A stretch of 64,000 bases of DNA from Kiloniella laminariae. GTDB lineage: Bacteria; Pseudomonadota; Alphaproteobacteria; Kiloniellales; Kiloniellaceae. The translations under genes and the position numbers were made by a program. Under the pieces are notes generated by a model, which was not told the DNA's origin, made no database searches, and worked only from the letters and a program-made list of their open reading frames with translations. Positions 34,895 through 44,844 of this stretch are shown here, in pieces. Position 1 is the first letter of the stretch, and each line of letters starts with the position of its first letter. The stretch covers positions 558,001 to 622,000 of the forward strand of contig NZ_JAPWGY010000003.1 in the NCBI RefSeq assembly GCF_027214005.1, given 5' to 3'.

Positions 34895-35179
34895 CTAGAT
34901 CCGCTCTAAAAAACGGACCTTCTTGTCGCTGATCCAGTCGCTGACTAACTGATTAAAAGCAGCAAAGTGATCTGATTTGAGATGAAGGTTAAAGTCCTGG
35001 GCTGTGCTGTAGAGTTCATAGAGAAAGAACCTCAGTTTGTCTTGGGGGTCGACACAAACATCAAAGACCTTGCAGTTGTTTTCCTTGTGCAGGGAGGCCT
35101 GGGCCTGGATCAGAACTGCGGCGCGAAACTTTTCCTCACAGCCGGGTTTGATCGTGAAGTCGACAAGAACTGTGTACAT
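34895..35179 (-). CDS. ABM-domain protein, LsrG-like
   Basis: A 94-residue dimeric alpha-beta barrel protein. The sequence runs MYTVLVDFTIKPGCEEKFRAAV to SDWISDKKVRFLERI, with CVDPQDKLRFFLYELYSTAQDFNLHLKSDHFAAF in the middle. The start is the ATG at 35179 with GGGAAAA upstream; the longer frame overlaps the aldolase gene. It is the last gene after the kinase and aldolase on the minus strand. LsrG-like enzymes break down modified sugar phosphates, so a related step in this locus is plausible. Confidence 0.82.
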   Translation of the reverse strand: MYTVLVDFTIKPGCEEKFRAAVLIQAQASLHKENNCKVFDVCVDPQDKLRFFLYELYSTAQDFNLHLKSDHFAAFNQLVSDWISDKKVRFLERI

Positions 35180-35258: not shown

Positions 35259-35957
35259 TTAGTCCGGGGAGGAATTGGCAAAGGCCTTTCCACTGCCATA
35301 GCCTTTGTTGAATTTTTCCAGGGCTTCATCCATTTCGTTCTTGCCGAGAATAACCGCCCCACCTGCAACCAGGGTGCGCCAGTAAACATCACATAGTGTT
35401 TCGACTTCCATAGCCATGGAGAGGGCCTGTTTTAATGTTCCACCCAGGGCGATGAGCCCGTGATTGGCAAGCAGGCAGGCCTTGCGGTCCTGCAGAGCTG
35501 TAACGGCAAGATCGGACAGTTCTTTGGTCGCGAAGGTCGCATAGGGTGCACAGCGAATGGTATCTCCGCCGGTAATGCCGATCATGTAGTGAAAGGACGG
35601 AACATCCTTTCGCAGGCAGGCGATGGTCATGGCGGCTTTGCCATGGGTATGGACGATGGCATTTATTTCGGGGCGGGCGGTGAAAATATCCTGGTGAAAG
35701 CGCCATTCACTGGAGGGCTTTCGCAACCTGTTTGGGCTTTCATGGCTGCCATCAGGGTGTTTGAGAACGATGTCTTCGGGGGTGATGTCCTCATAGGCGA
35801 TGCCTGAAGGAGTGATGAGAAAACCGTCTTGGACCCGTATACTGGCGTTGCCAGAGGTTCCCTGGTTGATGCCGATCCGGTTCATCTCAAGAACTGTATT
35901 GATCAGTTCCTGGCGTTGTTCGTTCGATTGACTGTTCATCTTGTCAGACCTGTTCAT
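35259..35957 (-). CDS. otnC: Class II aldolase/adducin family (3-oxo-tetronate-4-phosphate decarboxylase-like)
   Basis: A 232-residue FucA/AraD-fold protein. Zn-binding His residues are visible in HTHGKAAMTIACL and in ANHGLIALGG. In acid-sugar pathways the close relatives decarboxylate 3-oxo-tetronate 4-phosphate made by the DUF1537 kinase, which is the preceding gene here. Its ATG overlaps the kinase stop by four bases (ATGA), showing translational coupling. The otnC name rests on this context; other class II aldolases are possible. Confidence 0.82.
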   Translation of the reverse strand: MNRSDKMNSQSNEQRQELINTVLEMNRIGINQGTSGNASIRVQDGFLITPSGIAYEDITPEDIVLKHPDGSHESPNRLRKPSSEWRFHQDIFTARPEINAIVHTHGKAAMTIACLRKDVPSFHYMIGITGGDTIRCAPYATFATKELSDLAVTALQDRKACLLANHGLIALGGTLKQALSMAMEVETLCDVYWRTLVAGGAVILGKNEMDEALEKFNKGYGSGKAFANSSPD

Positions 35958-37234
35958 TTCACTGAATTGGCAATGGCAAAGGCCTTGAGGAAAAAATTTT
36001 CACCACCAAAATTACCGGATTTCAGGGCAAGAGCGAGAGGATCGGGGCCCGTGCTTCTGGTCCAGGGAACACCGGGATCTATTTCTGGTCCGATTTCCAT
36101 GGATGATATACCCAGAGCATTTATGACGGCCCCGGAAGTCTCCCCTCCGGCAACAACAAAACGTTTGACGCCGCTGTTTCTCAAGCATTTTGCAATCTGC
36201 CCTAGGGTTTGTTCAATCATGTCTCCACTTTCCATCCTGCCATGGGTATGTTGGGTTTCGGCCACCTGTGCTGCAGGGGCCGAAGAGTAAATCATGACCG
36301 GTGTTCCTGGTTCTATTACTGCCTGTGCCCAGTGCAGGGCTTGCTCCACGACTGGCGCGCCATCAAGAATGGCCCGGGGATCAAGCTGAAAATGGGGCAG
36401 GTGGGCTTTGGCAAATTCAATCTGTGCCAAAGTGGCTTCTGAACAACTGCCGGAGAGGATTGCTTCTGTACCTGCTGGGAAAACAAATCGGGGCGCCCTT
36501 TGTTGGTGAGGCATCAACCCTGCGGCGCGGTAATTGTCGGGCAGGCCCTGTGCAAGAGCTGAGCCGCCAGTCACCAGAATCATATCCTTGCAGGCCTGTC
36601 CGATAGATCTGAGATGATGATCGTCCAGGGCGTCAATAATTGCGATTGTCCGGCCTGTTCCCTGATTTTGTGTGAGAGCATCGACAATCGCGCCGGGACC
36701 TCTGCTAACATCTTCAAAGGTAATATTGTTGATGTAAGAGGTTGATTGACTGGAAAGGACCCGGTTGAGGTTTGGATCGGTCATGGGAGTCAGGGGGTGA
36801 TTGCGCAGAGATGATTCTGATAAGAGGCCTTCATTAACGAAGAGATATCCCTTGTAAACGCTGCGACCGTTTTCCGGAAAAGCAGGACAGGCGATGGTGC
36901 TATTGCAGGACAGTTTCTCCATGAGTGCATCGGTTACAGGGCCGATGTTTCCTTCGGAAGTGGAATCAAAGGTCGAGCAATACTTGAAGAAGATCTGCCC
37001 TGCCCCTGCTGCGCGGAGCCAAGCGCAGGTTTTGACTGACATCTCGATAGCTTTGGCAGCGGGGATCGTACGTGATTTTAACGCAACAACAACGGCTTCA
37101 GCACTAGGAAGTGGTGTGTTTTCATCGGGAACGCCAACAATCTGTACTGTTTTCATGCCTTCACGGACCAGAATCATGGCCAGATCGGTCGCCCCGGTCA
37201 GGTCATCAGCAATACAGCCGAGTATAATGCTCAT
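35954..37234 (-). CDS. otnK: Four-carbon acid-sugar kinase (DUF1537)
   Basis: A 426-residue kinase of the DUF1537 family that phosphorylates acid sugars such as 3-oxo-tetronate. The N-terminal domain starts with CIADDLTGATDLAM (about residues 7-20) and the C-terminal nucleotide-binding domain has GGETSGAV (363-370). The start has AAGGTGAAAA upstream. Related kinases act on D-threonate or 3-oxo-isoapionate, so the true substrate is open. It is coupled to otnC, then the ABM gene, and faces the lactonase gene across the shared operator. Confidence 0.88.
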   Translation of the reverse strand: MSIILGCIADDLTGATDLAMILVREGMKTVQIVGVPDENTPLPSAEAVVVALKSRTIPAAKAIEMSVKTCAWLRAAGAGQIFFKYCSTFDSTSEGNIGPVTDALMEKLSCNSTIACPAFPENGRSVYKGYLFVNEGLLSESSLRNHPLTPMTDPNLNRVLSSQSTSYINNITFEDVSRGPGAIVDALTQNQGTGRTIAIIDALDDHHLRSIGQACKDMILVTGGSALAQGLPDNYRAAGLMPHQQRAPRFVFPAGTEAILSGSCSEATLAQIEFAKAHLPHFQLDPRAILDGAPVVEQALHWAQAVIEPGTPVMIYSSAPAAQVAETQHTHGRMESGDMIEQTLGQIAKCLRNSGVKRFVVAGGETSGAVINALGISSMEIGPEIDPGVPWTRSTGPDPLALALKSGNFGGENFFLKAFAIANSVK

Positions 37235-37404: not shown

Positions 37405-37422
37405 ATTAATGTATACGTTAAT
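37405..37422. promoter_or_regulatory. Palindromic operator between otnK and the lactonase gene
   Basis: An 18-bp near-perfect palindrome ATTAATGTATACGTTAAT lies in the 310-bp divergent spacer. A near-identical site occurs at 43484-43501 in the other divergent spacer of the locus. It fits the size and symmetry of a GntR/FadR-type operator, probably for the regulator at 39665. Confidence 0.75.
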
Positions 37423-37544
37423 AAATATGTTTTGCAATTTATTTTTGCCGGGTTTAGGCTGCTGTCAAGAAAGAGAATAGAGAAAGTCAGGTGTGCTCTG
37501 TTACCTGGAGCCCGCTATAACAGAGGTAGAGAAAGCAGCTGAAA

Positions 37545-38570
37545 ATGATTCCACTTGATTCCATCACTCGAGTTGGCAACGGGTTAAACCGCCCGGAATG
37601 TGTCTTGGCAACGGCAAACGGGCGACTGTATACGGCAAGTTGGAAGGGGGGGGTGAATATTATTGAGGCCGATGGCAGTCAATGGGATCTTCTGCCTCGG
37701 GACAGGAACCTGGATCTGAAGCCGAACGGTATTTGTCTCATGCCTGACGGAGCAGTCCTGATTGCTCACCTTGGGTCGACAGATGGGGGAGTGTACCGGA
37801 TTGATGATGCAGGAGAAGTTACGCCCTTTTGTCTGGAGGTTGATGGAGAGCCACTGCCGCCGACGAATTATGTTCATCTTGACGATAAGGGACGGGTGTG
37901 GATCACCGTCAGCACACGCCAAATTCCGCGGGCGCTGGGATATCGGCCAGATGTCAGAGACGGTTTTGTGGTGCTGGTGGATAAGGGTATCGCCCGCATT
38001 GTGGCAGATGGTCTGGGCTATACCAATGAATGTTTGGTGCATCCGGATGGCAAGCGTCTGCTGGTGAACGAGACTTTTGCCCGCAAGCTGGTCAGTTTTG
38101 ATATTGATGAGCAGGGTAATTTGTCCGACAAGACTACCCTTGCTGAATTTTCGGCCGGGACCTATCCCGACGGAATGACTTTTGATACCGACGGCGGGAT
38201 CTGGATTACCTCTATTGTCAGTAACAGGGTGATCCGTATTGCGATAGATGGCACCCAGACAATTGTTATAGAAGATAATGATCCGGAAAAGATCTTGTGG
38301 ATCGAAGAAGCTTTCCAGAAGGGCGAGATGGGACGCCCCCATCTGGACAATGTCTTCAGCCGGAAACTAAAAAATGTTTCGAGCCTGGCGTTTGGTGGTC
38401 AGGACCTTAAAACGGGATACCTCGGGTGCTTGCTGGATAATTGCATCTATAGCTTTGTTTCTGATCACAGCGGCCATACCCCAACGCACTGGAACTTTGT
38501 CGGACCAGAACATAAAGGCAATGCCGACATCGACGCCAGCATCAAAGAGGGGGTGAAGCTTGAGGGTTAA
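37545..38570 (+). CDS. SMP-30/gluconolactonase-like lactonase
   Basis: A 341-residue six-bladed beta-propeller of the SMP-30/LRE family. Repeats and metal ligands show in GNGLNRPECVL, NGICLMPDGAVLIAHLG, YTNECLVHPDGKRLLVNETF and AGTYPDGMTFDTDGGIWI. Such enzymes open sugar lactones to aldonates, using divalent metal. The start is ATG 37545. The dehydrogenase gene overlaps its end by 11 bases, so lactone formation and hydrolysis are paired here. Confidence 0.88.
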   Translation: MIPLDSITRVGNGLNRPECVLATANGRLYTASWKGGVNIIEADGSQWDLLPRDRNLDLKPNGICLMPDGAVLIAHLGSTDGGVYRIDDAGEVTPFCLEVDGEPLPPTNYVHLDDKGRVWITVSTRQIPRALGYRPDVRDGFVVLVDKGIARIVADGLGYTNECLVHPDGKRLLVNETFARKLVSFDIDEQGNLSDKTTLAEFSAGTYPDGMTFDTDGGIWITSIVSNRVIRIAIDGTQTIVIEDNDPEKILWIEEAFQKGEMGRPHLDNVFSRKLKNVSSLAFGGQDLKTGYLGCLLDNCIYSFVSDHSGHTPTHWNFVGPEHKGNADIDASIKEGVKLEG

Positions 38571-39600
38571 GTCGGAAAAGCTTCGTGTTGCAACCGTCGG
38601 CACCGGTTATTTCAGTCGCTTCCAGTATGCGGCCTGGGACAGACTTCCGGAAGTAGAACTGGTCGCGATCTGTAACCGCAGTCCTGAAGCCGCCCGGGAA
38701 CTGGCGGAGAGATACAGTATCGGCAAAACCTATCAGGATTTTGAATTGATGCTGGATGAAGTCTGGCCGGATCTGGTGGATATCATTACACCGCCAACAA
38801 CCCATACAGCCTATGTTCGTGCTGCCGTTCAGCGGGGGATTCCCGTGATCTGCCAGAAGCCTTTCACACCATCGATTTCCGAAGCGCGCGTGTTGACAGA
38901 ATTCATTGAAAGCAAACAGGCAAAAGTTATTATTCACGAGAATTTTCGTTTCCAGCCTTGGTATCTCAAGCTGAAAGAGCTATTGAATCGGGATGTTCTG
39001 GGGGAACTCTATCAGATCAGCTATTGCCTGAGGCCAGGCGATGGGCAGGGACCTGAGGCTTATCTGGACCGACAGCCATATTTCCAGCAGATGGAACGGT
39101 TACTGGTGCATGAAACAGCCGTGCACCTGATTGATGTATTCCGTTTTCTTTTCGGGGAAATCAGCTCGATCTATGCTGATTTGCGTCGAATTAATCCTGT
39201 CATCAGGGGGGAGGATGCCGGTATTCTTTTGTTTGAGTTTCAGAACACAACTCGTGGTGTGTTCGATGGAAACCGTTTGAGTGATCATGCGGCGCAGAAC
39301 CACCGCCTGACCATGGGGGAGATGTGTATTGAGGGGGCGGCAGGCACTCTGTCACTTGATGGCAGCGGCGACCTCTTTTTGCGTAAACATGGTGCAAGGG
39401 GGCGTGTTCGTGTTGATTATGACTGGCAGGATCGGGATTTCGGTGGTGATTGTGTTTTTAATCTACAGCGTCACGTGGTCGATCATCTGTTACGGGGCAC
39501 CGAGGTTATGAACGTGGCCCGTGATTACCTTGTTAATGTGGAAATAGCTGAAGCAGCCTATCTCTCACACGCGCAAGGGAAGAGAATCTCTTTGCCATGA
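38560..39600 (+). CDS. Gfo/Idh/MocA-type oxidoreductase
   Basis: A 346-residue NAD(P)-dependent sugar or polyol dehydrogenase. The Rossmann motif is VGTGYFSRFQYAAW (near residue 12), the conserved Lys is in QKPFTPSISEA, and the later HETAVHLIDVFRFLFGEI is the family's catalytic helix. It starts with TTG at 38560 (GGGGG with six bases of spacing), overlapping the lactonase stop. It probably oxidises a sugar to the lactone that the preceding enzyme opens. Confidence 0.88.
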   Translation: MRVKSEKLRVATVGTGYFSRFQYAAWDRLPEVELVAICNRSPEAARELAERYSIGKTYQDFELMLDEVWPDLVDIITPPTTHTAYVRAAVQRGIPVICQKPFTPSISEARVLTEFIESKQAKVIIHENFRFQPWYLKLKELLNRDVLGELYQISYCLRPGDGQGPEAYLDRQPYFQQMERLLVHETAVHLIDVFRFLFGEISSIYADLRRINPVIRGEDAGILLFEFQNTTRGVFDGNRLSDHAAQNHRLTMGEMCIEGAAGTLSLDGSGDLFLRKHGARGRVRVDYDWQDRDFGGDCVFNLQRHVVDHLLRGTEVMNVARDYLVNVEIAEAAYLSHAQGKRISLP

Positions 39601-39664
39601 TCGGTTGAGGCTCTTGATTTTAGGTATTTACTTGTTAAAACAAAGAAACAGGGAGAGGAAGTGA

Positions 39665-40360
39665 ATGCCAGGAAAAGCTGTCAGAAAAAAAGTCAAGGCA
39701 CCCAAAGTATCCCTTACAGACAAGGCCTATGCCGATCTCAAGCGACGGATTTTGGATAACGAGATCATGGCTGGCGAACAGCTGCTTGAATCTGAACTGG
39801 CTGACCTTTTGAAAATGAGCCGGACACCAACCCGCGAGGCGATGATGCGTCTGGAGGCGGAAGGATTCGTCGAGGTGCGCCCGCGCCATGGTATGAAGGT
39901 CAAGCCGATCTCGATCCTGGATATGAAAGAGATCTATGCACTGCTGACCGGGCTTGAATCTACCGCGGCCTGGCAGGCGGCAGAACGTGATCAGACGGAT
40001 GCAGATATCAAGGCGTTGCGTGATAGTGTTGCAGAGATGGATCTGGCGCTGAAGAACCATGATCTTCGGGCTTGGGCTGTGGCTGATGAAACCTTTCACA
40101 AGTTACTGGTCAATATGAGTGGCAACCGGAGACTGATCGAGTTGGTCAGCCGATTCATTGATCAATCACACCGAGTCAGGATGTTAACGCTTAAATTGCG
40201 TCCTTTGCCGTCCCAATCGAATGAGGACCATGGGGCTGTTGTCTCGGCAATCGAGAACAAGGATTCTGAGTTGGCCCGTCGGATCCACCGCATTCACCGT
40301 GAAAAAGCGGGGCGACTCATGGTAGAACTGCTTGAAAGCCACGGTCTGACCCAACTGTGA
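39665..40360 (+). CDS. GntR-family (FadR subfamily) regulator
   Basis: A 231-residue GntR regulator. The winged helix-turn-helix (residues ~18-85) includes ESELADLLKMSRTPTREAMMRLEAEGFVEVRPRHGMKV. The C-terminal all-helical FCD ligand domain has the DETFHKLLVNMSGN metal/ligand region. It lies at the centre of the acid-sugar locus, 65 bases after the dehydrogenase gene, and is the natural candidate to bind the two matched palindromes. An acid-sugar or phosphate intermediate is the likely ligand. Confidence 0.92.
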   Translation: MPGKAVRKKVKAPKVSLTDKAYADLKRRILDNEIMAGEQLLESELADLLKMSRTPTREAMMRLEAEGFVEVRPRHGMKVKPISILDMKEIYALLTGLESTAAWQAAERDQTDADIKALRDSVAEMDLALKNHDLRAWAVADETFHKLLVNMSGNRRLIELVSRFIDQSHRVRMLTLKLRPLPSQSNEDHGAVVSAIENKDSELARRIHRIHREKAGRLMVELLESHGLTQL

Positions 40361-40375
40361 AATTGATTTTATTGT

Positions 40376-40413
40376 AAAAAGGCCCTGCAAGCTTCATCTT
40401 GCAGGGCCTTTTT
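40376..40413. terminator. Bidirectional terminator between GntR gene and dctM
   Basis: A perfect 15-bp inverted repeat (AAAAAGGCCCTGCAA and its complement, 8-base loop) gives a T run on either strand. It lies between convergent gene ends. Confidence 0.93.
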
Positions 40414-40431
40414 ACGTGGCTTTTTTACGGG

Positions 40432-41715
40432 TTATCTAAAAAAGTGGACTAATGTCATCGAGACTGCAGGAACATATGTCACCAGCAGCAATGCAGAGAT
40501 GGCAACAAGATAAAGTGGTGCCATTGCGCGGGCAATGGAGAGCACACCGACACCTGAAATCCGGGAGGCAACATAGAGGGTTGCGCCAACGGGTGGTGTA
40601 AAGAGGCCAACAGCGACATTACAGGTCATGATGACGCCGAGATGAACCGGATCAACCCCGAACGTTAGTGCCGTGGGGATGAATAGCGGTGCTGTCAAAA
40701 GGATGGCAGGTACGGGATCCAACACCAGCCCGAGAACCAGTAAAACGAGGTTTACAAGGAGAAGAAAGGTAAAGGGACTGGACGAGACAGCTTGAACAAA
40801 TTCCACAAGGATCTGCGGCAGTTGTTCGAGTGTGATCAACCAGCCCAGAACACTTGTTGCGCCGATCACTACCATGACAATGGCACTGGTGACAAAGGAA
40901 TCAATCATTAGCTTGGGAAGGTCACGCAGACTAAAATCCCGATAGATAACGACTGTCACGATGAAACCATAGACCACGGCAACGGCTGCGGCTTCAGTCG
41001 GGGTGACGAGACCACCGAAAATGCCGCCAAGGATAAGAACCGGCATAAAAAGCGCGGGCGCCGAGCCAGTGAAGGCGTGCCAAAGTTCTTTCTGGCTTGT
41101 TTTTAATCCGCCGGGGTCGCAGCCGGTTTTCTTACCCACATGATAACAAACGCCCATAAAAAACAGGCCAAAAATTAAACCCGGGATAATACCGGCAATA
41201 AAAAGATCTGCGACCGAGACATTACCGACAAAACCATAAATCAGCATGGGGATTGAAGGTGGAATAATGATTCCGATCGTGCCGGCTGCGGCAACCAGTC
41301 CGCCCGCGAAAGCCTTTGAATAGCCCTGCTTTGCCATGTTGGGGATCATTACCGAGCCGATAGCTGCAGAATCGGCGATTGCAGAGCCTGAAATTCCGCC
41401 AAAAAGCATGGAAGCGCCAACAACAACAAAACCAAGGCCACCGGGGAGGAAACCAAAGGCGGCTTTGGCGAAGTCGATAATTCTTTGTCCGACCCCGCCA
41501 CGTCCCATGAGTTCCCCGGCGACAATGAATAGGGGAATGGCGATAAAGTGGTTTGGTTCAACGCCGCCGATGAGGTTTAGAAATACTGCCTGCAAGGGAT
41601 ATCCCAGATCAAAGACAAAAATGGGCAAGATGGCTGTGACGATGATGGCCCAAACCAGAGGTACGCCTAAAAAGATCGTGCCAAGGAAAACCAGGCAAAT
41701 AAATAGTAAGATCAC
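40432..41715 (-). CDS. dctM: TRAP transporter large permease DctM
   Basis: A 427-residue integral membrane protein of the TRAP-T large subunit (DctM) type, with about 12 helices. Conserved segments include PLFIVAGELMGRGG, GGISGSAIADSAAIGSVMIPNM and the internal AAAGTIGIIIPPSIPMLIYG. It works with DctQ and the binding protein in Na+-driven uptake of acidic sugars or carboxylates. The GTG at 41715 overlaps the dctQ stop (GTGA). Confidence 0.95.
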   Translation of the reverse strand: MILLFICLVFLGTIFLGVPLVWAIIVTAILPIFVFDLGYPLQAVFLNLIGGVEPNHFIAIPLFIVAGELMGRGGVGQRIIDFAKAAFGFLPGGLGFVVVGASMLFGGISGSAIADSAAIGSVMIPNMAKQGYSKAFAGGLVAAAGTIGIIIPPSIPMLIYGFVGNVSVADLFIAGIIPGLIFGLFFMGVCYHVGKKTGCDPGGLKTSQKELWHAFTGSAPALFMPVLILGGIFGGLVTPTEAAAVAVVYGFIVTVVIYRDFSLRDLPKLMIDSFVTSAIVMVVIGATSVLGWLITLEQLPQILVEFVQAVSSSPFTFLLLVNLVLLVLGLVLDPVPAILLTAPLFIPTALTFGVDPVHLGVIMTCNVAVGLFTPPVGATLYVASRISGVGVLSIARAMAPLYLVAISALLLVTYVPAVSMTLVHFFR

Positions 41716-42251
41716 TCGTAATCCTCCCAATCCCGGGTGCCGGTGTTTTTTACACAGACCGGGCCTGCGCCATGACGTATATCGAGGTAAAAATTGTAGA
41801 GGTGAAAAATCAGGGTGAACAAAATACCGACAGGCAAGGCTGCATACAGAAAGCCGACAGGCCAGTAGAGAACCGTGGTTTTTTGCGCCCAGGTATGCAG
41901 CGAGATATTGTACCCGTGATAAATGAGGCTGATCAGCAACAAGGTGATGAACAGATTGATTGCAATTTCCAGCAAATGCTTAAATTTTGGAGAGAAGAGG
42001 TTGTCAACAATTTCGGTGACACGCATATGCGCACCGCGTGCCGTTGCCGCTGCGCATCCCATGAAGGTCAGCCACAGTAGTAGAAAAGCAGTAATTTCCA
42101 GCGACCAGGCCAGGTCGAAACCTGCCGCACCACGCAAGACCACATTTGTGAAAATGAGGATGAGGACAGCCAACCCGCCGATGGCGAGAAACAGGTCAAT
42201 AAATGTACTGAGATTTTTCAGTACCAATGGGTATCTGTCTCGATAGTCCAC
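41712..42251 (-). CDS. dctQ: TRAP transporter small permease DctQ
   Basis: A 179-residue four-helix membrane protein of the DctQ family. It contains WSLEITAFLLLWLTFMGCAAATARGAHMRVTEIVDNL, typical of the small subunit. The start is a GTG at 42251 with GGGAGCTATCACT upstream; an upstream ATG at 42320 lies inside the stem of the attenuator and was rejected. It couples to dctM by a four-base overlap. Confidence 0.9.
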   Translation of the reverse strand: MDYRDRYPLVLKNLSTFIDLFLAIGGLAVLILIFTNVVLRGAAGFDLAWSLEITAFLLLWLTFMGCAAATARGAHMRVTEIVDNLFSPKFKHLLEIAINLFITLLLISLIYHGYNISLHTWAQKTTVLYWPVGFLYAALPVGILFTLIFHLYNFYLDIRHGAGPVCVKNTGTRDWEDYE

Positions 42252-42281
42252 AGTGATAGCTCCCGACGACTTTTCTGGGTG

Positions 42282-42321
42282 AAAAAATGCGCGCCCGTTT
42301 TCCGAATAACAGGCGCGCATT
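42282..42321 (-). terminator. Terminator or attenuator between dctP and dctQ
   Basis: On the minus strand a perfect 10-bp GC-rich stem (AATGCGCGCC with its complement, 16-base loop) is followed by TTTTTTC. It sits inside the dctPQM operon after dctP, so it should lower dctQM expression relative to dctP, as is common for binding-protein operons. Confidence 0.88.
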
Positions 42322-42331
42322 GTTCATTGTG

Positions 42332-43354
42332 CTATTGAGTAGGGAATTTGGTGCGAATGGCTTCTGCATCGGCAAGAATCTTGGCAACATCATCGCCGTA
42401 GATGTCTTTGGCTTTTGCGTAGACGGACTTGACGGCTTCACGGAAAGGGCCAATTTCTGGGGCGACGACAGTAGCGCCTGCAGCTTTCATTTCCTCTATC
42501 TGGCTATCGACAGAATCACGTACCAGCTTACGGCTGAACTCAGAAGATTCTTTCGCGGCTTTTTTGATGGCTTTCCGGTCTTCTTCGGAAAGTTTCTGCC
42601 AGGTCTGTTCGGAAATCGTTAACGGGAGCGGACTGTATACATGGCGAGTTAGCGTGATGTATGGAGCTACTTCATAAAATCTCAGGGATTTGATGGTGTC
42701 TACCGGGTTTTCCTGTCCATTTACTACACCTTGTTGGATCGAGAGATAGACGTCAGTGATTGGCATGACAACAGTTTGGAAGCCGATTGCTTCCATGGTC
42801 CAGCGGATCATGTCGTTTGGATAGACACGCATCTTCTGACCTTCTGCATCTTTGGGTGAATTCAGAGGTGATGTAGTGGTGAAGCTTCTGAAGCCAGCTT
42901 CCCAAGTTGAAAGTACGCGAAAACCTTTTTCCGGCAGCTTGTCAAACTCGCCTTTTAACCAGGCCGAATTATCATAAAGCTCCCAACCTTGCTCGTAACT
43001 ATCAACGAGAAATGGCATAGCTGTCAGATTGAGCGTTGGCATGTGAGTTGCGTAACTGCCTGTTGCGGAAACTGTAAAATCGACACCGCCGAGTTGAAGT
43101 TGTTCGATTGCTTTGGGATCATTTGCCAATTGACCTGCAGGATAGATCCGAACTTTATACCGTCCTTCGGTATACTCGCTGACCTTTGCAGCAAAGACCT
43201 CTGCTGCGGCCTGTCTGGACCCTCCGGGGTTGTCAGTATGGCTGAAGCGCAGGATTGTTTCTGCAGATGCAGTCCCCGACATCAGCAAGGCAGATCCGAG
43301 GATCGTTGCGGCAGTAACTGTCCCGATCGTGATTTTCTTCCAGTCTTTAAACAT
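42332..43354 (-). CDS. dctP: TRAP transporter substrate-binding protein DctP
   Basis: A 340-residue periplasmic binding protein of the DctP family. A signal peptide ends at SGTASA before ETILRFSHTDNPGG. The fold region SIQQGVVNGQENPVDTI carries the conserved central helix, and the Arg-binding region for carboxylates is in MRVYPNDMIRWTMEAIG. The ligand should be the acid sugar or precursor fed into the locus. The start has GGGAGGAAACAC. It is transcribed from the divergent spacer that holds the second palindrome. Confidence 0.94.
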   Translation of the reverse strand: MFKDWKKITIGTVTAATILGSALLMSGTASAETILRFSHTDNPGGSRQAAAEVFAAKVSEYTEGRYKVRIYPAGQLANDPKAIEQLQLGGVDFTVSATGSYATHMPTLNLTAMPFLVDSYEQGWELYDNSAWLKGEFDKLPEKGFRVLSTWEAGFRSFTTTSPLNSPKDAEGQKMRVYPNDMIRWTMEAIGFQTVVMPITDVYLSIQQGVVNGQENPVDTIKSLRFYEVAPYITLTRHVYSPLPLTISEQTWQKLSEEDRKAIKKAAKESSEFSRKLVRDSVDSQIEEMKAAGATVVAPEIGPFREAVKSVYAKAKDIYGDDVAKILADAEAIRTKFPTQ

Positions 43355-43483
43355 GTGTTTCCTCCCTTGGTAACGGCTTTTTGCCGCCTGTTTTGAATCG
43401 TGAATTGGGGTGTTGAATTGAGCCCGGCGTCTTTATGACTTCATAATTACAGTATATTTGATAAAAAATATGTCAATGAATAT

Positions 43484-43501
43484 GTTGACGTATACATTAA
43501 T
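43484..43501. promoter_or_regulatory. Palindromic operator between dctP and the dehydrogenase gene
   Basis: GTTGACGTATACATTAAT, in the 389-bp divergent spacer, matches 16 of 18 bases to the reverse complement of the palindrome at 37405-37422. A partial third copy (ATTAATAGTATAC) lies at 43509-43521. This supports joint control of transport and catabolism by one regulator. The rest of the spacer holds no gene. Confidence 0.75.
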
Positions 43502-43743
43502 TGTTTTATTAATAGTATACAGACAGAGCAACAGCGGAAATCAGGTTTGAAACAGCCGCGTTGTGTTTTTGTGGAAATCTTGGCCGGAGCCGGGGGAATA
43601 CAGTTATAGAACAGGCTTTATTATCGCCATTAATCAAAAAGGCCGTACAAGAAACCAGATGGCCTGTTCTGTAAGGTTTCAAAGTCAGAATTGTATTACG
43701 TGGATTTCCATTCTTTATTTATACAACAAGCAGGATACCGACT

Positions 43744-44844
43744 ATGAGCTCATCTGTTTTTCAAGTAGCTGTCATTAAAGGCGATGGAATAGGAATAGAT
43801 GTTACAGATGCTGCACTTCACATCGTGGAAGTTGCCCTTGAAAAAGCAGGAAACACTGCTCTGGAGTTTCTTCCGATTCAAGCGGGGGCAGGATATTTCA
43901 AAGAAACGGGACAAGATATAGAGCCAGGAGGGGAAGAGGCTGCGGGGCGAGCAGATGCGATTTTCCTAGGTGCGATAGGTCTTCCTTCTGTTCGTCAGAA
44001 AGATGGAACAGAGATATCACCACATCTGAGATTACGTGAAAAATTCAATCTGTATGCTGGTGTCCGCCCGGCAAGAGCTTATCCCAATGCGCCACAACGG
44101 CTTGCAGATCCGCGTGCTGCAGAAATAGACATGGTGATCTTAAGGGAGTCTACGGAAGGATTGTTCTATTCTGCAGCTGTTCATAACCGTTGTCCGGTAG
44201 ATACAGGCGATGAGGTTCAGGAGCTTCTGCGTATTACGCGTACAACGACGGAAAAGTTGCATGATTTTGCCTTCAAACTGGCGCAAAAACGTCAGGAGCG
44301 CAGAGGTAAGAGTAAAGTTACCTGTGTGGATAAGGCTAATGTTTTCAGGTCGATGGCATTTTTTAGGAAAATTTTTGACGAACGAAGTGTCCGATTCCCA
44401 GAGATAGAAAAGGGATATAACTATGTCGATGCACAAGCTCTGGATTTTATCCGCAAACCCTGGGAGTTCGATGTGCTGGTCATGGAAAACATGTTCGGGG
44501 ATATTCTATCAGATCTGGCTGGGGGATTGGTGGGTGGCATGGGGATGGCGGCCTGTGGAGAGATAGGTGATAATCACGGACTGTTCCAACCCGCGCATGG
44601 CTCTGCCCCGGACATTATGGGACAGGACAAAGCCAATCCGCTTGCCGCGATCCTTAGCGGTGCCTTGATGCTGGATTATCTTGCTGATAAGGCTTCAAAC
44701 GATACTCTGGCGCTGGCAGCAAAGATAATTGACGATGCGATTTATCATGGCTTTGCCACAAAGCGTATCCGTCCGCAGGAATTTGGCGGGGATATGGGAA
44801 CCAAGGCAATCACACGAGAAGTGATCAATCTTATTCGAGGATAA
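43744..44844 (+). CDS. Isocitrate/isopropylmalate dehydrogenase-family enzyme
   Basis: A 366-residue NAD-dependent beta-hydroxyacid oxidative decarboxylase. Motifs are [11 protein letters not shown] at the start, [21 protein letters not shown] with the catalytic Lys, and [12 protein letters not shown] followed by [15 protein letters not shown]. Relatives include tartrate, D-malate and isopropylmalate dehydrogenases; it is not the leucine LeuB in this context. It probably decarboxylates an oxidised acid-sugar intermediate in this locus. The ATG at 43744 is the natural start. Confidence 0.87.

Follow-up and report, generated by a model that had tools for sequence, protein, structure and literature searches.

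Among the closest described systems is Atu1419 of Agrobacterium fabrum, a regulator of the FCD/VanR group whose operator, ATGTATACAT, has been shown biochemically, with Arg45 touching its G; according to the accessible part of that study, Atu1419 governs hydroxycinnamate genes through sites at the promoter of its own gene and at a neighbouring one, and acts as a tetramer with a 10-bp site, its two palindromes being separated by 190 bp and the DNA between them looped (PMC7797058). The available portion of a comparative-genomic collection of GntR regulons describes GT-N2-AC palindromes, lying singly near the middle of divergons, with additional, weaker boxes at 7-12 nt from the centre of the site (PMC4494728). 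As for catabolism, L-threonate and D-erythronate are degraded by LtnD or DenD, OtnI, OtnK and OtnC, with dihydroxyacetone phosphate as the likely product and with the DeoR regulator VdtR in Brucella (PMC12540250, PMC10580937, in excerpt); the D-apiose/D-apionate pathway brings together a lactonase, an oxidoreductase and a kinase of the OtnK family (PMC11747546, in excerpt). Here we analyzed a locus of Kiloniella laminariae within a window of 64,000 nucleotides, the whole stretch of DNA examined, in which two 18-bp palindromes are candidate operators of an FCD-type GntR protein. Together they would define a single regulon for C4 acids or their precursors, a reading to which we assign a probability of about 0.8. 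A regulon with this gene set is not named in the available text of PMC4494728, and a search of one literature library returned no published account of it among the matches listed.

The regulator gene (39665..40360, plus strand) is the third gene of a lactonase operon. Its product has a GntR winged HTH (PF00392, 59.5 bits, cut-off 27) and, C-terminal to it, an FCD domain (PF07729, 86.3 bits, cut-off 24.3), as in Atu1419. The operon begins with an SMP-30/gluconolactonase-family lactonase (37545..38570, plus; PF08450) and a Gfo/Idh/MocA oxidoreductase (38560..39600, plus). On the minus strand lie the 3-oxo-tetronate kinase gene otnK (35954..37234; NF043035, 581 bits, cut-off 350), a class II aldolase-family gene at the place of otnC (35259..35957) and a gene for a small ABM-domain protein, distantly LsrG-like (34895..35179; PF03992, 59.3 bits; NF007791, 34.4 bits, under the cut-off of 135). 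The aldolase is FucA-like, scoring 231 bits with the fuculose-phosphate aldolase model NF005984, under its cut-off of 264, and is not OtnC by model (NF043034, 78.6 bits, cut-off 250). A complete DctP-type TRAP transporter follows, also on the minus strand: the large permease DctM (40432..41730; PF06808), the small permease DctQ (41712..42320; PF04290, under the YiaM cut-off) and the solute-binding protein DctP (42332..43354; PF03480), assigned by profile and structure comparison. Between the convergent gntR and dctM genes, a hairpin of 19 pairs with a T-run (40373..40416) is a probable terminator. The last member, an isopropylmalate/tartrate-dehydrogenase-family enzyme (43744..44844, plus; PF00180; IPMDH-like hereafter), scored above no cut-off among the 16 NCBIfam models listed.

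Candidate operator 1, ATTAATGTATACGTTAAT (37405..37422), lies in the divergent spacer between otnK (start 37234) and the lactonase gene (start 37545); candidate operator 2, GTTGACGTATACATTAAT (43484..43501), lies between dctP (start 43354) and the IPMDH-like gene (start 43744). These are the neighbours given in the preliminary description, and its identity of 16 of 18 positions also holds, GTTGACGTATACATTAAT differing from the reversed ATTAATGTATACGTTAAT by two mismatches. The two sites scored 29.3 and 23.0 with a PWM whose training set included both of them. That they are chance AT-rich palindromes is a very remote prospect. The spacers are AT-rich, the consensus consists mostly of A and T, and loose patterns are frequent: the 10-base core with one mismatch gave five matches in the window, three of them outside the two sites. 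At up to three mismatches, however, only two places in the 64 kb matched, one of them read on both strands, against 0.02 expected. The symmetrical form at the same tolerance found three places in the whole genome (4,381,464 bases), namely the window pair and a match on another contig (C22) with a GAATAC core, which we take for chance; a looser pattern built from both sites found six places at two mismatches and the window pair alone at zero. The window pair are the only good copies found in the 4.38 Mb genome. Sigma-70-like promoter matches were no commoner than in shuffles (6 versus 7.1), so there was no support for promoter overlap.

The palindrome was then sought near orthologues in related genomes, the check proposed in the preliminary description, which named lack of conservation as refuting; the prediction withstood this check. 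Among the searched genomes, seven genera keep the palindrome near the orthologous GntR gene, as does one Rhodobacteraceae assembly, and in most cases it occupies a divergent spacer. At 22 of 26 GntR-orthologue loci, no more than 1 of 200 dinucleotide shuffles produced a match as good as the best one within 6 kb; the chance reading is contradicted because the site is conserved in relatives. No significant site was found at the other four (L050, L067, L023 and L028). L050 is an orphan gene beside a transposase, and L023 was examined over 3.6 kb only. From 23 more distant loci, two entered the shuffle test, where the L027 site was significant and L028 was not; L029 and L030, looked at separately, had no good site, and the remaining 19 lay outside the sample. 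Operator 2 aligns with the operator of a same-genus genome (G004). There and in G006, where the assembly is cut before gntR, the gene set stands on one divergent promoter with one operator; in the window the same set is divided between two such promoters, each with its own operator. The TRAP transporter adjoins the site in the window, G004 and G006, and where it is replaced, an ABC ATPase gene carries the site (G023, G037, G046, G030 and G018). Orthologues of the ABC genes in two genomes lacking the GntR orthologue (G042 and G047) had promoters without a site at a score of at least 10. The proposal of one regulon for transport and catabolism is supported in that both share the site, even where the transporter type has changed.

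An improbable alternative is that the palindrome belongs to another GntR protein and that the local gntR regulates something else. GT-Nx-AC operators are common to FCD proteins; a first look gave 21 GntR-like candidates in the K. laminariae genome (G000), all ten orthologue-less genomes searched with an alignment hold other related regulators, and genus g4 has a paralogue with a comparable site (L022, L024 and L025). By our reading of the sequences, this paralogue site lies at an apparent tripartite tricarboxylate transporter. Against this reading, a strict motif tracks the orthologue, occurring in 14/19 genomes with the regulator and 1/39 without it (Fisher p 1.5e-8, kinship ignored), with the pattern and site list picked after the relatives had been inspected. 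Nineteen of its 25 places are no more than 5 kb from a GntR orthologue. Four share a common 17-mer at a remote place in g4 genomes, three of them annotated and representing one operon; one of the last two lies beside pilus genes (G035), and the other is an ABC promoter from a short contig. The strict pattern fails to match operator 2 itself and the G004 and G017 sites. A loose pattern fixed beforehand from the window alone was rejected as too unspecific and counts against the motif: with two mismatches it matched 41/58 genomes, and control counts were equal or higher in several. At nine loci with a Gfo gene and no GntR orthologue, the site was absent from six, and a site-like match was present at three (L142, L144 and L149).

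The regulator itself is consistent with operator recognition of the Atu1419 kind. Its residues S52, R53, T54, D141, H145, H189 and H211 are invariant in 24 aligned sequences, the first three forming the helix 3 DNA-contact Ser-Arg-Thr and the others being metal ligands. From the alignment and the accessible part of PMC7797058, the equivalents in Atu1419 appear to be S44/R45/T46 and N137/H141/H192/H214, so that the two proteins would share the Arg-to-G contact and the metal-ligand set; the Atu1419 structure, 6z74, ranks second by E-value among 14 relatives in the PDB. The window cores ATGTATACGT and ACGTATACAT are each one base off ATGTATACAT, and the contacted G is present in 32/32 sites, a conservation that is partly built in because the sites were picked by their core. 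The GT-AT-AC core also fits the FCD-type GT-Nx-AC palindrome near a regulator's own divergon, as in the excerpted regulons of PMC4494728, and, like the Atu1419 sites, the window sites lie at the regulator's own and a neighbouring promoter. Single sites near the middle of divergons and weaker additional boxes are further likenesses to those regulons. In contrast to the 10-bp site of Atu1419, the dyads here span 18 bp, and many are accompanied by a second half-site at a distance of 12 bp; the associated genes are those of a sugar-acid locus, where Atu1419 governs hydroxycinnamate genes.

That second half-site was examined by an offset scan (offsets 9-30, better of two sides) of 20 sites chosen by hand. 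Eleven (the cluster sites of genera g1, g2 and g4, L027 and the g4 paralogue) averaged 6.2 of 9 at 12 bp and 2.6-4.1 at other offsets; the nine others, including the same-family L066, L099 and L183, lacked the 12-bp peak (means 2.0-3.4). A spacing of 12 bp between main dyad and second half-site is the usual arrangement in g1, g2 and g4. Operator 1 scored 4 of 9 at this offset and operator 2 scored 7. An overlapping dyad, GTCAATGAATATGTTGAC (43472..43489), is centred 12 bp left of operator 2; it is weaker (11/18 to the consensus) and is the better-matching window dyad at this offset, judged by half-arm symmetry with G004. The partial third copy noted previously (43509..43521) does have a GTATAC core, centred 25 bp from operator 2; that offset is unremarkable in relatives, and with the scan peaking at 12 bp only, it was rejected as a conserved element. 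The 43472..43489 dyad falls on the opposite side of operator 2 from it.

The 3-oxo-tetronate kinase in the pathway suggests that the acid sugar, unnamed in the preliminary description, is a C4 (tetronate) compound or a precursor of one. In the excerpted accounts of the L-threonate/D-erythronate route (PMC12540250, PMC10580937), OtnK is central, as in the window; further likenesses are OtnC in the relatives and dihydroxyacetone phosphate as the likely product. The window locus differs in that none of ten window proteins matched OtnI, LtnD or DenD, a FucA-like protein stands at OtnC's place, the regulator is a GntR protein, and Gfo, IPMDH-like, ABM and lactonase genes are added. In G000 as a whole, no OtnC scored over the cut-off in the profile search and the best DenD match reached 68 bits (cut-off 325); an OtnI-family gene over its cut-off lies in contig C1.

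A serious though lesser possibility, which we place somewhat below even odds, is that the palindromes are operators of this GntR protein for a substrate that is not C4, such as an apionate-like sugar acid, or its lactone, that is branched or has a longer chain; the Gfo, IPMDH-like and ABM proteins would then act before OtnK. Those three genes stay close to gntR in most cluster loci and are conserved extras beside the kinase pathway; both g4 genomes that were examined carry otnK and otnC elsewhere, without a site (L100 of G016 and L147 of G018), and several relatives rely on an ABC importer, sugar-type by our reading, whose binding protein is of the SBP_bac type. Gfo is closest to 5uhw (an NAD+ and Mg complex) in both sequence and fold: its model (pLDDT 90.1) matched 5uhw best (Z 38.8, rmsd 2.4, 332 aligned), followed by 4gqa (Z 34.9, rmsd 2.5, 332 aligned). 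We take 5uhw to be an apionate-type oxidoisomerase. The kinase argues the other way: although lactonase, oxidoreductase and a same-family kinase occur together as in the D-apionate pathway, it scored 140.4 bits as OiaK, with a cut-off of 700, against 581 bits as OtnK. OtnC over the cut-off also lies beside otnK in 4/7 genomes searched (G013, G016, G023 and G046) and at L027, and a 3-hydroxyisobutyrate/threonate-family dehydrogenase joins the cluster (threonate model, 186.1 bits, cut-off 350). DenD-family genes over the cut-off occur in four of six genomes searched; G023 has a weaker site about 44 bp upstream of its gene, and no upstream site was found in G013 (two genes), G016 or G046. An identical site to that of G023 occurs at a contig end in G030.

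The fold of DctP was compared as well. Its AlphaFold model (pLDDT 76.2, six sequences) resembles many TRAP binding proteins, with 4p47 best (Z 31.5, rmsd 2.6, 298 aligned) and 7bbr, DctPAm, titled a sugar acid binding protein, ranking 20th (Z 28.2, rmsd 3.5, 290 aligned). No C4 ligand was named in the titles of the 50 matches listed, many of them partial, and derivation of a substrate from these matches was abandoned.

Conservation of the site near the same regulator in relatives makes an ordinary repressor regulon very probable, one that serves four-carbon sugar acids or their precursors. We infer its binding, repression, C4 acid-sugar ligand and enzyme order as follows. Each 18-bp dyad (core AYGTATACRT) would be occupied by a GntR dimer, with repression as the likeliest effect, and four transcripts would be controlled from the two sites: otnK-aldolase-ABM and lactonase-Gfo-gntR from site 1, entailing autoregulation, and dctPQM and the IPMDH-like gene from site 2. 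A carboxylate ligand, probably at the FCD metal site, would release GntR. The sugar acid would be imported, its lactone opened and the product oxidised, and 3-oxo-tetronate would be converted by OtnK and the aldolase-family enzyme to dihydroxyacetone phosphate. Quite speculatively, the regulon may mark an undescribed variant of C4 or branched acid-sugar catabolism in which LtnD/DenD and OtnI are replaced by two of the extra proteins, Gfo/Idh functioning as an oxidoisomerase and the LsrG-like ABM protein isomerising a keto acid. The FucA-like aldolase would perform the OtnC decarboxylation in the window genus, and in several genera two dimers would occupy a pair of overlapping dyads offset by 12 bp.

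The regulation itself is ordinary, and the novelty lies in this regulon as a member of the GntR group. Regulator, operator and gene set are now concrete and jointly testable, and in several bacterial families the Gfo/Idh, IPMDH-like and ABM enzyme types are tied to a 3-oxo-tetronate kinase. In relatives, the site offers a way to look for missing transporters and dehydrogenases.

Both copies of the 18-bp palindrome reported in the preliminary description (operator 1, 37405-37422; operator 2, 43484-43501) are present, and reversing one of them brings 16 of the 18 positions into agreement. No third place turns up in the 64 kb when as many as three mismatches are allowed (0.02 expected), and a whole-genome search with the symmetrical form ATTAATGTATACATTAAT at the same tolerance returned both sites and one GAATAC-core match in contig C22. 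Operator 1 is the sole genomic match to a stricter degenerate form, while the 10-mer core with one mismatch gave three further matches in the window besides the operators. A position weight matrix trained on 18 sites from relatives and on both window sites scored operator 1 at 29.3, operator 2 at 23.0 and the window's next best place at 13.5. Left of operator 1, on the minus strand, lie genes for an ABM-domain protein (34895-35179), a class II aldolase-family protein (35259-35957) and the 3-oxo-tetronate kinase OtnK (35954-37234); right of it, on the plus strand, lie those for an SMP-30-type lactonase (37545-38570), a Gfo/Idh oxidoreductase (38560-39600) and the GntR/FCD regulator (39665-40360). 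Between gntR and the TRAP genes dctM (40432-41730), dctQ (41712-42320) and dctP (42332-43354), which converge on it, lies a hairpin of 19 pairs with a T run (40373-40416), and a gene of the isopropylmalate dehydrogenase (IPMDH) family (43744-44844, plus) lies beyond operator 2. Given this gene order, the two sites could serve four transcripts, the regulator's own included, with operons predicted from gene spacing.

Matches to the GntR protein at E ≤ 1e-40 numbered 25, in 19 of 58 genomes with the window's own counted; their neighbourhoods were fetched and the genes mapped. At most loci with catabolic genes beside gntR, the site falls between two divergent genes: otnK and the IPMDH-like gene in genus g2, the ABM and lactonase genes in genus g4, otnK and a dehydrogenase gene in genomes G023 and G046, and the IPMDH-like gene and dctP in the same-genus genomes G004 and G006. 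We tested 26 loci, i.e., the 24 non-own matches plus L027 and L028 from a more distant set; at 22 of them no more than one in 200 dinucleotide shuffles equalled the best consensus match within 6 kb of GntR, although many tested loci are drawn from a handful of genera and the counts are thus not independent. The positive loci represent seven genera (g1, g2, g4, g5, g6, g18 and g22) and an uncultured Rhodobacteraceae assembly (L027), and include three g4 paralogues outside clusters of this kind (L022, L024, L025) and two more distant loci with weaker sites (L068 and L069, 42% and 39% identity). The shuffle test failed within 6 kb of GntR at L050, L067, L023 and L028, and L029 and L030, two scanned from 21 further loci of ≤33% identity, were without a good site. 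The regulon that had been predicted is backed by this comparative evidence.

A strict form of the motif, drawn up only after the orthologue loci had been inspected, was found in 15 of the 58 genomes: among the 19 that have an orthologue it occurs in 14, among the 39 that lack one in a single genome (Fisher p 1.5e-8, uncorrected for kinship). It was absent from the orthologue genomes G004 and G017, where the sites fail the pattern, and G007, G036 and G048, and it also missed operator 2. Its 25 distinct places include 19 no more than 5 kb from a GntR orthologue. Another four, all in g4, have a 17-mer in common; three of these are annotated (G011, G016, G018) and represent a single remote ABC/amidohydrolase operon. 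The remaining two are a short-contig ABC promoter (G030) and a place next to pilus genes (G035). The remote operon (L099:9856, L102:9962, L106:9387) encodes an amidohydrolase, an ABC importer, an IolE-like TIM barrel and a second Gfo, with a sugar kinase nearby; its site has a perfect 12-bp core in all three genomes, and the identical 17-mer is present in G014. The regulator, or its paralogue, may have a second target here. The g4 paralogue (L101:10706, L022, L024, L025) has a near-identical site and adjoins a putative tripartite tricarboxylate transporter, suggesting a motif common to a subfamily. Other 18-bp palindromes with a GTATAC core recur in relatives outside the cluster (L185:8252, L186:2149, L187:8028, L191:8798), with GTTAACGTATACGTTAGT in G033 and G042 and ATTGACGTATACGTCAAC in G016 and G011, and are perhaps operators of other FCD regulators.

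Among nine loci with a Gfo gene and no GntR orthologue, six had no site and three had a site-like match (L142, L144 and L149, the last a same-genus locus ending at a contig end). At L149:1-825 (G006:C417) the Gfo match stops close to the end of the contig, at residue 288, and the 0.8 kb left holds no GntR. A looser pattern, set on the basis of the window only, did not separate the genomes at two mismatches (41/58, and in several genomes the controls matched as often or more often); its specificity is too low at this stringency. The same-genus genome G007 (L050/L192, G007:C56:1-3000) carries an orphan GntR orthologue of 74% identity with a transposase gene directly adjoining, and otnK and Gfo were not found genome-wide at the cut-offs used, as if the catabolic genes had been lost.

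The transporter varies: the window, G004 and G006 have TRAP genes, G023, G037, G030 and G046 have an ABC importer instead, and G018 has a further ABC copy apart from the cluster. In each of these five ABC-bearing genomes the site lies immediately upstream of the ABC ATPase gene, whereas the ABC orthologues in G042 and G047, genomes without a GntR orthologue, have none. G004 has the same ten genes with one divergent promoter (IPMDH-like/dctP) and one operator, and G006 shares this layout up to a contig end within gfo, before gntR. In the window the IPMDH-dctPQM block is inverted and placed beyond gntR, resulting in two divergent promoters with one operator each. Aligned with its counterparts in G004 and G006, the IPMDH/dctP spacer of the window scores 39 and 34, values that none of 300 plain shuffles equals, and the G004 alignment takes in the operator together with its 12-bp box. 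For the otnK/lactonase spacer the alignments are poorer (26 and 30, equalled by 6 and 3 of 300 shuffles). We infer that operator 2 is the older.

Many FCD-group GntR proteins bind GT-Nx-AC palindromes. All 32 sites of a set chosen by core and including near-identical loci have the G and C of GTATAC, with A-T half-arms to about 8 bp. In 11 sites (g1, g2, g4, L027 and the g4 paralogue) a further half-site exactly 12 bp away is prominent, giving two overlapping dyads; nine other sites, three from the same family, have no prominent one. In the window a second dyad (43472-43489) accompanies operator 2, but not clearly operator 1. Extra boxes 7-12 nt away are described for GntR regulators generally (PMC4494728). 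Among 14 solved relatives of the window GntR, Atu1419 (6z74) ranks second by E-value. It binds ATGTATACAT, with the G read by Arg45, and no longer binds once this G and the base paired to it in the palindrome are changed (PMC7797058); this operator and the window cores ATGTATACGT and ACGTATACAT are one base apart. Helix 3 Ser-Arg-Thr and four metal ligands are invariant across 24 aligned proteins. Because of the likeness to Atu1419 and these conserved contact and metal residues, GntR would bind the operators as dimers and would presumably act as a repressor, with a carboxylate as the putative ligand releasing it.

OtnK scores 581 bits against its own model (cut-off 350), and 140.4 bits, under the cut-off of 700, against the apionate kinase model. 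In relatives, OtnC above cut-off adjoins otnK, and a 3-hydroxyisobutyrate/threonate-family dehydrogenase, under curated cut-offs, joins the cluster; G023 has a weaker site (score 17.5; L178:6356-6373, G023:C1:94855-94872) some 44 bp upstream from a gene of the DenD (D-erythronate dehydrogenase) family. Taken together, these sequence matches point to C4 acid sugars as the substrate class. Against this, the window locus has no OtnI, LtnD or DenD, its aldolase is FucA-like, and three other DenD-bearing genomes lack a site at DenD. In the two g4 genomes examined, moreover, GntR keeps Gfo, IPMDH-like, ABM and lactonase beside it, and otnK-otnC lies apart from the cluster and has no site. Among solved structures the Gfo protein is closest to 5uhw, an NAD+/Mg complex that we take to be apionate-type. 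The pathway substrate may also be a branched or longer precursor.

The palindrome upstream of DenD in G023 recurs identically at a G030 contig end. The FucA-like class II aldolase (35259-35957) occupies the place of OtnC in relatives; its homologues in G004 and G006 share 78-79% identity with it, so all three genomes of the genus in which the cluster was seen have the replacement. The ABM-domain protein (34895-35179), a distant LsrG relative, belongs to the GntR cluster also at loci whose cluster has no otnK (L058-L061). A GntR/FCD divergon regulon is a known kind of system, of which this is a further case; the enzymology is its less ordinary side.
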